Source of the DNA: Pseudochryseolinea flava
GTDB taxonomy: Bacteria > Bacteroidota > Bacteroidia > Cytophagales > Cyclobacteriaceae
Direction of reading: 5' to 3'
NCBI RefSeq assembly: GCF_003286915.1
Contig: NZ_QMFY01000001.1
Location: 372,001-436,000, forward strand
DNA length: 64,000 bases
In this document: positions 3,865-37,517 of the stretch, piece by piece
Position numbering within the stretch: position 1 is the stretch's first letter
How the letters are laid out: each line of letters begins with the position of its first letter
Translations under genes and position numbers: made by a program
The notes under the pieces: model-generated
Seen by the model: the letters and a program-made list of their open reading frames with translations, nothing else
Databases searched by the model: none
What the model was told of the DNA's origin: nothing

Positions 3865-4518
3865 ATGAACCCCACACCTATCATCAGTGACAAACGTCGA
3901 CAACTCGAAATCTGCGCCGTAGTTTCTACTGGCATCGGGAAATTTGTTTTTATGGACTGGCTGGGTTGGAAACTTCCATTCATATCCGTCGCCATCATAG
4001 CGTGGGTCGCTTATGTGATTATCCGCCAGCGTCAAGAACCGGGTATTTTATCTTACTGGGGCTTTCGTACTGACAATTTTAAAGAAGTACTACGAATTGT
4101 ATTGCCCTTCGGGATCGTGGCCGTGGTGCTTTTCTTCATCGTAGGTTGTTCCTTAAACACGATAAACCTATCATGGCATATACTACCGATACTCATATTG
4201 TATCCGATATGGGGCACGATACAACAATTTTTGGTGATTGGTCTCGTAGCCGGAAATTCAAAAGACCTGGAGCGTAACAAATTCTCCAACGCGTTGATTA
4301 TATTCTTAACCGCGTTACTCTTCGGACTGCTACACTATCCGTTTTATTGGCTTGTCGCTGGCACTTTCGTACTCGCACTATTTTATGGTTATGTGTATTT
4401 GAAAGCGCGCAATGTTTACGTGATGGGAATATTTCATGGCTGGTTAGGTGGATTATTCTTCTACACTGTCGTTGGGCGTGATCCGCTCCAGGAAGTATTT
4501 GGAAAGTTTCTACATTAA
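3865..4518 (+). CDS. CPBP-family membrane protein with altered catalytic motif
   Basis: A 217-residue polytopic membrane protein with about six hydrophobic helices. The CPBP (CAAX protease and bacteriocin-processing, Abi) family is shown by motif 2, FGLLHYPF (His157), and the last motif, HGWLGG (His191). Motif 1, normally EExxxR and carrying the general-base Glu, reads QQFLVI here (Gln120-Gln121, with Ile for Arg). Loss of both glutamates and the arginine suggests a non-proteolytic relative. No bacteriocin cluster is adjacent. The start ATG at 3865 lacks a Shine-Dalgarno sequence, which is usual in this phylum. Confidence 0.75.
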   Translation: MNPTPIISDKRRQLEICAVVSTGIGKFVFMDWLGWKLPFISVAIIAWVAYVIIRQRQEPGILSYWGFRTDNFKEVLRIVLPFGIVAVVLFFIVGCSLNTINLSWHILPILILYPIWGTIQQFLVIGLVAGNSKDLERNKFSNALIIFLTALLFGLLHYPFYWLVAGTFVLALFYGYVYLKARNVYVMGIFHGWLGGLFFYTVVGRDPLQEVFGKFLH

Positions 4519-4949: not shown

Positions 4950-4992
4950 TTGTTACGCTTTAGGTAACAACAGAAAAGTTGCTTTACCTTTG
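4950..4992 (+). promoter_or_regulatory. Promoter with inverted-repeat operator
   Basis: TACCTTTG at 4985-4992 is an exact TAnnTTTG -7 element. A perfect inverted repeat, TTGTTAC-N7-GTAACAA (4950-4970), sits where the -33 element should be, so a dimeric regulator bound there would compete with or assist the polymerase. Transcription would start near 4998 and read through the mini-ORF toward the tRNA-like genes and RNA ligase. Confidence 0.55.
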
Positions 4993-5010
4993 TATCACAA
5001 GAAATCAAAA

Positions 5011-5121
5011 ATGACAATGAAACTCGGCATCAATACATTACAACTCAGCTCATGGCTTCAGGGCACGCGTTTTTCAGCGGCTGGGGGGTCATGGCATTAT
5101 CCGGGGACGTCTATATTATAG
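5011..5121 (+). CDS. 36-codon leader-type mini-ORF
   Basis: ATG at 5011 lies about 13 nt after the predicted start of transcription and opens 36 codons ending in TAG (5119-5121). The peptide is not obviously membrane-bound or secreted; it contains two Trp codons (LSSWLQG and GGSWHYPG). A terminator hairpin begins 27 nt after the stop. This arrangement resembles a leader peptide with attenuator, but no amino-acid biosynthesis gene follows. It could also be a small regulatory RNA with incidental coding potential. Confidence 0.35.
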   Translation: MTMKLGINTLQLSSWLQGTRFSAAGGSWHYPGTSIL

Positions 5122-5147
5122 ATAGAAATTCGATTCGCAAAGAATAG

Positions 5148-5182
5148 AAGCCCTGGGTAATCGCTCGGGGCTTTTTCTTTTT
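5148..5182 (+). terminator. Terminator or attenuator hairpin upstream of tRNA-like genes
   Basis: AAGCCC (5148-5153) pairs with GGGCTT (5168-5173), the stem extending with a few less perfect pairs, followed by TTTCTTTTT. It either ends a short transcript from the 4950-4992 promoter or acts as an attenuator, since no gene intervenes before the tRNA-like pair at 5298. Confidence 0.65.
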
Positions 5183-5297: not shown

Positions 5298-5371
5298 GCA
5301 GCATACGCATACATGGTGGTGCACCTGGCCTCCAACTAGGAATAGAGTCGGTTCGAATCCGACATGCTGCA
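5298..5371 (+). tRNA. Degenerate tRNA-like gene 1 (anticodon ambiguous: TCC Gly or CCA Trp)
   Basis: The acceptor stem is perfect: GCAGCAT (5298-5304) with ATGCTGC (5364-5370). The T arm is perfect: GTCGG-TTCGAAT-CCGAC (5347-5363). The D arm GCAT/GTGC encloses ACATGGTG, with the usual GG. The anticodon stem CCTGG/CTAGG (5324-5328/5336-5340) leaves the loop CCTCCAA. Strict counting gives anticodon TCC, but then base 33 is C rather than the near-invariant T; reading T5331 as base 33 gives CCA, as in its neighbour. Base 8 is A instead of T and the variable loop is six bases. It may be a non-decoding tRNA mimic. CCA is not encoded. Confidence 0.6.
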
Positions 5372-5376
5372 CATTT

Positions 5377-5448
5377 ACATCGGAATGCCAATGGTGGCGA
5401 ACTGGACTCCAAATCCGGTTGTGGTGAGTTCGATTCTCACGCGATGTG
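5377..5448 (+). tRNA. tRNA-Trp-like gene 2 (anticodon CCA)
   Basis: Starts 5 nt after tRNA-like 1. The anticodon arm CTGGA-CTCCAAA-TCCGG (5402-5418) has T33 and anticodon CCA (5409-5411), and closely resembles ordinary tRNA-Trp anticodon arms. The T arm GTGAG-TTCGATT-CTCAC (5424-5440) is perfect. The acceptor pairs ACATCGG (5377-5383) with GCGATGT (5441-5447), with a G-G mismatch at the inner pair. The D arm is reduced, GCCA/TGGC with a four-base loop. It shares ATGGTGG and CTCCAA at nearly identical spacing with gene 1, so the two look like diverged duplicates. The RNA ligase gene follows 61 bp later. Confidence 0.65.
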
Positions 5449-5499
5449 CAACAGCTACGGATCAAACTGTGCTGTTTATATTTTATAAAAACTAAAATT

Positions 5500-5504
5500 G
5501 GAGG
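5500..5504 (+). promoter_or_regulatory. Strong Shine-Dalgarno sequence deciding the ligase start
   Basis: GGAGG lies five bases before ATG 5510. Canonical Shine-Dalgarno sites are uncommon in Bacteroidota, where A-rich leaders dominate. It argues for ATG 5510 over the in-frame TTG at 5498, and fits a gene acquired from a phage or another phylum. Confidence 0.7.
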
Positions 5505-5509
5505 TAACT

Positions 5510-6151
5510 ATGAAAGAGTACCACAAAATTCAAACGGTGTTCCTGCGTACGCCGGAAAGTAAATTTAAAACCTTGATGGAAGGTCATTGGGCACTTCCTG
5601 AATTTGAGCTATTAAAGGATGTTCAATGGGTATGGTCAGAAAAGATTGATGGAACTAACATCCGGATTATGTGGGATGGAGAACAAGTCCGTTTCGGCGG
5701 TAGAACCGATGATGCTCACATTCCATCATTCCTACTAAATGTACTGCAAGAAAAATTCACACCGTCCCTATTGCGAGCTGTATTCAAAGACGCGAAGGCC
5801 GTCTGCATTTACGGAGAGGGATACGGTCATAAGATTCAAAAAGGCGAGCACTACATCGCCAACGGTTGTGATTTTATTCTGTTTGACGTGCTTGTTGATG
5901 GATGGTGGCTAACCCGTAGCAATCTCGAAGATGTATCCACAAAAATGAATATTGCTATCGTACCACTAATCGGTAAAGGTACACTGATGGAGGCTATCGA
6001 CTTTGTGAAGAAAGGTTTTACATCAACGATCGCACAAAATAAAGCATACGTTGCCGAAGGTTTGATCTGCAAACCAGCGATTGAATTATTCAATCGACAA
6101 GGCACCCGGATTGTTGCCAAGATCAAACACCGCGATTTTATTGGCAAGTAA
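5510..6151 (+). CDS. Minimal RNA ligase, Rnl2-like nucleotidyltransferase
   Basis: The 213-residue protein carries the covalent nucleotidyltransferase motifs in order: motif I EKIDGTNIR (Lys45 as the AMP-accepting residue), VRFGGRTDD (about 61-67), motif III IYGEGYG (100-106), motif IIIa FILFDVLV (122-129), motif IV AEGLICK (182-188) and motif V VAKIKHRDF (202-210). Family members join RNA 3'-OH and 5'-phosphate ends using ATP. T4 Rnl2 is 334 residues; here the protein ends after motif V, so the C-terminal domain is absent. The gene follows two tRNA-like genes on the same strand, suggesting those RNAs are its substrates. A DNA-ligase role is possible but less likely, as no OB domain is present. 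Confidence 0.85.
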   Translation: MKEYHKIQTVFLRTPESKFKTLMEGHWALPEFELLKDVQWVWSEKIDGTNIRIMWDGEQVRFGGRTDDAHIPSFLLNVLQEKFTPSLLRAVFKDAKAVCIYGEGYGHKIQKGEHYIANGCDFILFDVLVDGWWLTRSNLEDVSTKMNIAIVPLIGKGTLMEAIDFVKKGFTSTIAQNKAYVAEGLICKPAIELFNRQGTRIVAKIKHRDFIGK

Positions 6152-6742: not shown

Positions 6743-6753
6743 CGTTTGGTAAG

Positions 6754-6837
6754 GTTAATCGTTAATCGTTAATCGTTAATCGTTAATCGTTAATCGTTAA
6801 TCGTTAATCGTTAATCGTTAATCGTTATTCGTTAATC
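6754..6837. repeat. Heptanucleotide tandem repeat, 12 copies of GTTAATC
   Basis: Twelve uninterrupted 7-bp units; units 1-10 and 12 are exactly GTTAATC, and unit 11 is GTTATTC. On the minus strand the unit reads GATTAAC. Degenerate copies persist nearby (TTATCGTTATACGTTAATCG, about 6884-6903). The array abuts the start of the minus-strand gene at 6742. The rest of the gap to 7118 shows no gene I can support. Confidence 0.97.
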
Positions 6838-37193: not shown

Positions 37194-37517
37194 AAAGCGC
37201 GTGTGTATTCCGATCTTCTAACTGGTATAGTGTTTGTCGCCGCGCGGAAAATTCCGGTAGCATCAGCGCTAACGGTATGAGTACACGTCGATTACATTTT
37301 TCAAAAATTGTTATAACGCCATACCGTCTCATCATCTTTCACCTGAAAAATCGAGTCGTGATGTTACCCTCTACACCGCGGTCTTTTTCCCTTTTGTATC
37401 TCCTCCTTTTTCCGCTTACCTGAGTGGCTATACGCACAATACTTTTACTGCCGAATCGATTCACAGCGGATTCTGAAAAGCTGCAAAAGAGTAAGAGTTA
37501 AAACATGATTAAATGTT

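Follow-up and report, generated by a model that had tools for sequence, protein, structure and literature searches.

The locus with two tRNA genes and an RNA ligase gene in Pseudochryseolinea flava is probably, with a likelihood of about two in three, an inducible operon of backup tRNAs in reduced form, which would consist of an attenuator, replacement tRNAs and a sealing ligase. The locus lies in the window, i.e. the whole stretch of 64,000 nucleotides that was analyzed (C11:372001-436000 of the genome G000, which is 6.54 Mb long and 99% complete). A Gly-Trp pair of the same kind and in the same order occurs in a large tRNA array of the related genome G160; therefore the window locus appears to be the reduced descendant of such an array with a captured ligase. 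Leaders of the same anatomy are conserved in related genomes and are linked there to tRNA arrays. A preliminary description of this DNA had missed the leader (4952-5180), the link to HigBA genes and the HD-Pnk partner.

The tRNA and ligase locus of the window

The palindrome GTTACGCTTTAGGTAAC (4952-4968) is a candidate operator, conceivably a HigA site. It is followed on the plus strand by the promoter -7 element TACCTTTG (4985-4992), which is of the type TAnnTTTG that we take to be the Bacteroidota promoter consensus, and by a leader ORF of 34 codons, MKLGINTLQLSSWLQGTRFSAAGGSWHYPGTSIL (5017-5121, with an alternative start at 5011). The end of this ORF contains segment A, the putative antiterminator strand (5095-5115). 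Next on the plus strand is a predicted intrinsic terminator (5147-5180), made of a hairpin at 5147-5174 and a T run; segment B (5143-5162) comprises its 5' arm and the preceding bases. Downstream, on the same strand, are the genes for tRNA-Gly(UCC) with C33 (5298-5371; 5298-5372 in ARAGORN), for tRNA-Trp(CCA) (5377-5448; 5377-5449 in ARAGORN) and for a one-domain ATP-dependent RNA ligase of 213 aa (5510-6151; PF09414). A gene for a CAAX protease (Rce1-like; 3865-4518, plus strand) is only a neighbor and outside the proposed system; a DNA match to this gene was found 3' of the ligase in the relatives L079 and L080. The Rfam matches above cut-off in the whole window were two tRNAs and DUF805b, a cis-regulatory RNA at 37463-37497. 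Tandem TTAATCG units were seen by eye at about 6753-6837.

ARAGORN called a tRNA-Gly(tcc) followed by a tRNA-Trp(cca). Both sequences folded into cloverleaves, as the preliminary description had recognized; equally good folds were obtained from 3/200 and 12/200 dinucleotide shuffles (Gly and Trp, in the order reported). The same description took the two for diverged duplicates with a Trp-type anticodon. Two diverged tRNA-Trp genes are ruled out, since the first is Gly(UCC) and only the second Trp, and each aligns to its own counterpart in G160, where the order Gly-Trp is the same. The covariance search which had been proposed for this region gave a divided result: Gly passed the Rfam tRNA cut-off with 43 bits, while Trp did not pass it and gave a sub-threshold match to the tRNA-clan model RF01852 (33.6 against a cut-off of 47). 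In comparison with G160 three stem pairs are changed on both sides and are still paired (two in Trp, one in Gly); two further pairs are changed on one side only. A relaxed-threshold Rfam search of nine stretches revealed no convincing family for the extra RNAs.

Housekeeping genes for Gly(tcc) and Trp(cca) are present on another contig, C2, of the same genome, and the window pair is therefore supernumerary. Both window tRNAs have strongly diverged from these copies, and neither is the main gene for its codons with a canonical sequence, as an ordinary housekeeping tRNA would be. With the housekeeping copies checked in the window genome itself, the pair represents clustered tRNAs beyond the housekeeping set. 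The idea that the two RNAs serve as decoys finds no direct support in their anticodon loops: the loop of the window Trp is identical to the housekeeping loop, and that of Gly differs from it only by C instead of U at position 33. Ordinary tRNAs without any relation to the ligase are also ruled out, by the housekeeping copies, by loci in which the ligase lies within an array and by the pairing in the leader. A role of the tRNAs and the ligase in replacement and repair is the best reading of these data.

The leader and the tRNA arrays of related genomes

To judge from its sequence, the leader has the anatomy of a ribosome-controlled transcription attenuator, which is presumably active. The predicted A:B duplex has -21.4 kcal/mol versus -18.1 for the terminator, and 47/2000 codon shuffles were at least as stable as A:B. 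The distance between the stop codon and the stem is 25 nt in the window leader and 17-31 nt across the 23 rows of a larger leader set. In 11 leaders the terminator arm can pair with the 3' end of the ORF (-17.3 to -28.9 kcal/mol); the paired stretch stops 0-11 nt ahead of the end of the stop codon, and 3 to 122 codon shuffles per 2000 were equally good. A:B reached at least the stability of the terminator in 10 of these 11 leaders, in 16/23 rows of the larger set and in 10/15 leaders of type 1. All 15 type-1 leaders have a predicted antiterminator pairing which reaches into the last part of the leader ORF; its stability is below that of the terminator in five of them. PG occurs near the ORF end in all 15.

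The A:B duplexes formed by each leader's own arms had a mean of -21.1 in the 15 type-1 rows and of -16.2 in the eight type-2 rows. When the arms were swapped between the types the means were -13.5 and -12.6. The own pairs are thus more stable than the swapped pairs, which suggests that the two arms have changed together. All of these means, and the count of 16/23, include the rows G160 (one codon late), G015_2 (wrong frame) and Okora_2 (wrong ORF). The type-2 row G177a_2 pairs weakly.

One leader plan is common to eight ligase loci of the family and to a second tRNA pair of the window genome, which has its own leader at C11:450.5 kb. A -7-type promoter element is upstream of 10 of the 11 leaders and was not found for the ligase leader of O. 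koreensis. Palindromes of the form GTTAC-N7-GTAAC were found near the leader promoters in 10 of 15 loci; in L078 and L132 the palindrome is only ahead of the second leader. A scan of both strands of the 64-kb window for a promoter, a leader ORF and a terminator gave a single match, namely the window leader; the same scan of 20 shuffled windows gave one match in total. On the plus strand of 15 loci the automatic scan gave 19 matches, all of them at array or ligase leaders, and missed four leaders (the O. koreensis ligase leader and the second leaders of L130, L131 and L133).

We also considered that the leader peptides might be rich in kinds of amino acid. There was no excess over protein windows of equal length in most rows; thus broad tRNA sensing is not shown by the composition. 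A second type of leader ORF (mostly MNK...HSSYR...CMP), with a terminator of its own, precedes the second half of the arrays (L077 10789-10926, L078 11159-11296 and L128 4997-5138; also in L129, L130 and L132).

A covariance model was built from nine leaders, including those of the eight family ligase loci, and was run on 295 genomes of the family. It had matches at E <= 0.01 in 42 of these genomes. Below 1e-7 there were 15 matches in 11 genomes; nine of them are the leaders used for training, and each of the other six precedes a tRNA array, with 3-17 genes (ARAGORN, in the stretches examined): 17 in G160, 12 in G132, 10 in G015, 4 in G177, 3 in G197 and 4 in O. koreensis. One array gene each in G132 and G015 is without an assigned amino acid. 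The G160 array begins with Asn, Asp, Arg, Lys, Ile, Met, Val, Gly, Trp and further tRNA-like elements. These are followed by a DUF4180 gene, a second leader and then Pro, Tyr, Gln, His, Arg, three Leu and two Ser. The Gly and Pro genes of this array were recognized by eye; each has a palindromic insert, which is in the T loop of Gly, and has no ARAGORN call. The array covers 13 amino acids according to ARAGORN, or 16 with Gly, Pro and a Phe-like element, which argues against the specificity for tRNA-Trp that had been proposed for the window locus. No Ala, Cys, Thr or clear Glu gene was recognized in it.

Judging from their sequences the array tRNAs look selected. The anticodons are kept in the aligned array copies of His (seven), Lys (nine) and Asn (nine), in an alignment that excludes two His genes, the interrupted one of C. 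serpens and the partial one of L132. The stem cells are paired in 160/161 (His), 216/216 (Lys) and 189/189 (Asn) cases, and five, six and six pairs, respectively, are changed on both sides, the structure itself having been predicted from these alignments. Inserts interrupt some of the array tRNAs, e.g. His in C. serpens and Gly in G160. Because of these inserts, the two tRNAs left in the window and C33 in the window Gly, the window array may be decaying.

Weaker matches of the leader model (E 5e-5 to 0.01) occur 44 times in the family. Seven stretches around such matches (L134-L140) contained no ARAGORN tRNA, and the same is true for 14 loci outside the window from a search of the phylum (L141-L154, E 5e-6 to 1e-3, about 3 kb each). 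Two weak matches, in G127:C80 (E 0.0017) and G156:C6:967928 (E 0.0043), are directly before a Phe-like element. This element was found in 16/295 family genomes and is partial in G250 and G276; in G156 ARAGORN called Pro and Arg genes downstream of it on the same strand. There was no leader match with the Phe-like element of G250, G257, G264 and G276; one of these four loci, L168, was read in part and contained no leader.

Several further properties of the array RNAs were seen. The Phe-like RNA (GAA anticodon) and an RNA with a long variable hairpin persist as a pair in reduced loci (L128 4341-4547; L163 and L165 about 1350-1600; L168 1500-1740). A palindromic insert alters the anticodon loop of the Phe-like RNA in G127 and G156, yet the leader and the DUF4180 ORF (by eye) are kept; the tRNA-like pair may therefore be non-decoding. 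Some array tRNAs contain short palindromic repeats, in most cases within the D, anticodon or T loop, which extend the hairpin in an intron-like manner (L128 3849-3867 and 5201-5219; L130 3640-3660 and 4079-4160; L077 11335-11366). The T loops of the arrays read, by eye, ATCGTGC in Asn, ATCGTTA in Lys and AGCGTTA in the Phe-like RNA, the usual form being TTCRANN, and positions 54/58 look swapped (A54/T58); these odd loops are at L128 2850-2923, 3482-3553 and 4341-4413 and in the orthologues. Also by eye, Glu-like and two-hairpin elements (L128 3014-3152 and counterparts in L082, L130 and L133) have a tRNA-like closing stem with variable hairpins in place of the anticodon arm, and are apparently not decoding tRNAs.

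The RNA ligase and its partner genes

The ligase matched the Pfam family RNA_ligase (PF09414) with 71.3 bits (gathering cut-off 27, E 1.4e-19) and a PHROG RNA ligase with 1.4e-21. The AlphaFold model has a mean pLDDT of 90.4, and its best PDB matches are T4 Rnl2 (E 9.7e-12 and 1.7e-11). The designation as a minimal Rnl2-like ligase agrees with the predicted fold. It does not extend to the Rnl2 equivalog model TIGR02307, where the ligase scored 40.5 bits, below the curated cut-off of 197.15. A C-terminal Rnl2 domain is absent, with 213 aa versus 319 residues in the T4 Rnl2 chain 2hvr; according to the model the ligase is an Rnl2-like nucleotidyltransferase domain minus the C-terminal domain. 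E44, K45, D47, G48, E103, G104, F125, D126, E183, G184, K204 and K206 are among the invariant columns of 27 aligned homologues (without L038, L040, L047, L048 and the broken O. koreensis copy). We take these columns to be the nucleotidyltransferase motifs, and this agrees with the earlier reading of the 213-residue protein. PADLOC at E 0.01 did not match the ligase.

The ligase is present in eight of the 295 family genomes. A sample of 345 genomes of the phylum contained two ligases besides the window's own, with 28-31% identity; relatives with 44-54% identity are on four contigs, from a Desulfobacteraceae MAG, two Thiosymbion genomes and an unassigned MAG. The neighborhood check that the preliminary description had suggested found array tRNAs around the ligase in three genomes, C. 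serpens, G163 and C. lacunae. Together with the leader common to the eight family loci this supports the view that the ligase and the extra tRNAs belong together. They do not form a self-contained module: the arrays L128-L133 are without a ligase, and at four loci of the window genus the ligase follows the leader with no ARAGORN tRNA in the 11-20 kb examined. One of these four ligase-only loci is that of O. koreensis, where the ligase is broken. The coupling between ligase and tRNAs is loose because 4/8 loci are without adjacent ARAGORN tRNAs and the O. koreensis copy is broken.

The phylogeny of the ligase bears on a different explanation, namely that a tRNA cluster with its ligase from a large phage is decaying in the chromosome and that the leader is a by-stander promoter region. 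In the ligase tree 17 of the 28 sequences are from viral contigs, and the clade of the family groups with three of these (96/95); the tree was made without L040, whose match is that of L037, without the two partial ones, L047 and L048, and without the broken ligase of O. koreensis. Furthermore, 567 of 50,697 phage records, versus none of 72,556 plasmid records, encode a relative of the ligase, all below 60% identity, and in the phage contig L044 the ligase is within a cluster of 20 tRNAs and a tmRNA. The tree and the phage records fit a cargo from a phage. However, the intact ligases of the family, seven in number, cluster together with support (97/98), and the leader, the tRNAs and HigBA recur across three genera of the family. 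Pairing in the tRNA stems has been maintained through changes on both sides, and 18/20 viral ligase loci are without an ARAGORN tRNA (at most 5 kb each side). We consider it unlikely that the locus as a whole is such a cargo. A phage origin of the ligase gene itself is likely; we infer that it was acquired once from a phage-like source and then placed under the leader.

All eight ligase genomes encode a protein with HD and AAA_33 domains, which we assume to be of the HD-Pnk type. It is found in 17/295 family genomes (E <= 1e-40). The gene is within about 1.5 kb of array tRNAs in G074, G177, G197 and G136; of the 17 array genomes, seven more have it on a different contig or at a distance of 25 to 115 kb, and six are without a close match. 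The association is significant by Fisher's test (p = 4e-12 with arrays, p = 2e-11 with the ligase), with values that are overstated by the relatedness of the genomes. The HD-Pnk-like gene of the window genome is at C11:492475-493563 (L182), about 114 kb away and outside the operon. In L182 a ligase-like ORF and an NMNAT/Nudix-like ORF, both named by eye, are beside it. A DUF4180 gene is present in 5/15 loci.

Proposed function and known systems

The most likely function of the locus is that a stall of translation causes read-through, and thereby the supply of replacement tRNAs and the sealing of RNA. Transcription would start near 4985, where the promoter-like element is presumably active. A first lock could be a repressor at the palindrome, perhaps a HigA-type protein encoded 73 kb away, and the attenuator would be the second lock. 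Ribosomes which finish the leader ORF would cover segment A, so that the terminator forms and the tRNA and ligase genes are off. A shortage of intact or charged tRNA, or poisoning of the ribosome, would make a ribosome stall inside the leader ORF; A could then pair with the terminator arm, and transcription would read through into tRNA-Gly, tRNA-Trp and the ligase. The two tRNAs would be charged and used in place of lost ones. The ligase would seal broken tRNAs or other RNAs after their ends have been healed, plausibly by the HD-Pnk-like protein from C11:492 kb. Either tRNA loss or a ribosome inhibitor may be the natural signal. More tentatively, and with somewhat less than even confidence, we propose a homeostatic circuit in which a large tRNA reserve and a ligase are kept under two locks, an antitoxin-like repressor and the attenuator that responds to ribosome position, and the loss of a tRNA that is read in the leader ORF sets free replacements both for that tRNA and for others.

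Alternatively, the leader could sense ribosome-targeting antibiotics as such, and the tRNAs and the ligase would confer antibiotic tolerance instead of answering tRNA loss. A leader ORF with a terminator is also the anatomy of antibiotic-induced leaders. According to the available text of the sources, the E. coli leader ORF toiL senses several classes of antibiotics ahead of a toxin-antitoxin pair (PMC12121999) and the trn array of Anabaena is induced by antibiotics (PMC10272220). This alternative differs from the backup-tRNA reading in the natural inducer and has the same mechanism, and the sequence is compatible with either signal. However, the genes downstream are tRNAs and an RNA ligase and no resistance gene, and we regard antibiotic tolerance as an improbable purpose.

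Homologues of HigA and HigB are encoded divergently upstream in 9 of the 11 tRNA-bearing loci; most of these also have a palindrome close to the promoter of the leader. A HigA-type HTH protein is the regulator encoded next to the arrays, and the antitoxin of C. serpens passes NCBIfam HigA. The similarity of the toxin to HigB is weak (E 0.0021-0.0037, under the Pfam cut-off). The window genome has its own HigA/HigB genes beside the second leader, at about C11:450 kb, 73 kb from the window locus. HigB-type toxins are known as ribosome-dependent mRNA nucleases, not as tRNA nucleases. In spite of this linkage it is very improbable that the array and the ligase serve the divergent HigBA pair as a rescue arm, repairing or replacing toxin-damaged RNA, given the weak toxin match, the activity of HigB-type toxins on mRNA and the absence of HigBA at the window ligase locus, in C. 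lacunae and at the four ligase-only loci.

Studies of inducible tRNA arrays are, as far as is known, limited to few organisms and have explained little of how translation stress switches such arrays on. Here a candidate sensor is legible in the DNA, as a leader ORF, a terminator and an antiterminator before tRNAs and an RNA ligase. The leader plan is kept in several species, including C. serpens DSM 24574, C. lacunae Jin1 and O. koreensis DSM 25262; therefore the question of sensing is directly testable. Moreover, the locus joins backup tRNAs, RNA repair enzymes and toxin-antitoxin genes, which are usually separate subjects of study. We know of no earlier case of tRNA genes under leader-peptide attenuation. 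A literature search of titles and abstract openings for tRNA arrays under attenuation or with an RNA ligase, with most subscription papers outside its reach, found no description of this combination.

HD-Pnk and RNA ligase genes form a cassette of the Runella type. The likeness to this cassette is in the HD-Pnk-like gene of 8/8 ligase genomes, near array tRNAs in four genomes; in contrast to it, the HD-Pnk-like gene here is outside the window, beside a ligase-like ORF of its own. With respect to repair of the T4 Pnkp/Rnl type, the same gene is the candidate for end healing, about 114 kb from the window operon. Similar to vmlR and toiL, as far as the latter is described in the accessible part of its source (PMC12121999), the window has a short leader ORF whose translation would select between alternative RNA structures. 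The output of those leaders is resistance or toxin-antitoxin genes, whereas that of the window would be tRNA genes and an RNA ligase.

Phage tRNAs are proposed, in the part of the source available, to withstand host anticodon nucleases (PMC10264068). Clusters of phage tRNAs share the ligase family, and in L044 tRNAs and ligase are in one cluster; unlike these clusters, the family loci are chromosomal, linked to HigBA and conserved among related species. The Salmonella rsr-yrlBA-rtcBA locus is similar as an RNA repair operon that answers damaged tRNA; according to the accessible text, tRNA fragments activate RtcR (PMC7790460). It uses RtcB/RtcA chemistry and the protein sensor RtcR, whereas the window has decoding tRNAs, another ligase family and predicted sensing by a leader ORF. 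The Y RNAs of rsr-yrlBA-rtcBA are not known to be decoding tRNAs. Neither an RtcB ligase nor a Y RNA was found in the window operon, where the ligase belongs to PF09414; the Rfam matches above cut-off in the whole window are two tRNAs and DUF805b.

The closest known system, to judge from the accessible text of its source, is the trn operon of Anabaena sp. PCC 7120, an inducible array of 26 tRNA genes; it is induced by translation-targeting antibiotics, and its repressor TrcR also represses rtcB (PMC10272220). Both systems would thus combine a supernumerary tRNA array with a co-regulated RNA ligase gene. The silent and then induced state has been observed for trn and is only predicted for the window locus. 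The string 'attenuat' was not found in the part of that source which is available (PMC10272220). Anabaena relies on a ribbon-helix-helix repressor, with its RtcB ligase encoded elsewhere. In the window, in contrast, a leader-ORF attenuator and possibly a HigA operator would act on a predicted transcription unit that also includes the PF09414 ligase gene.
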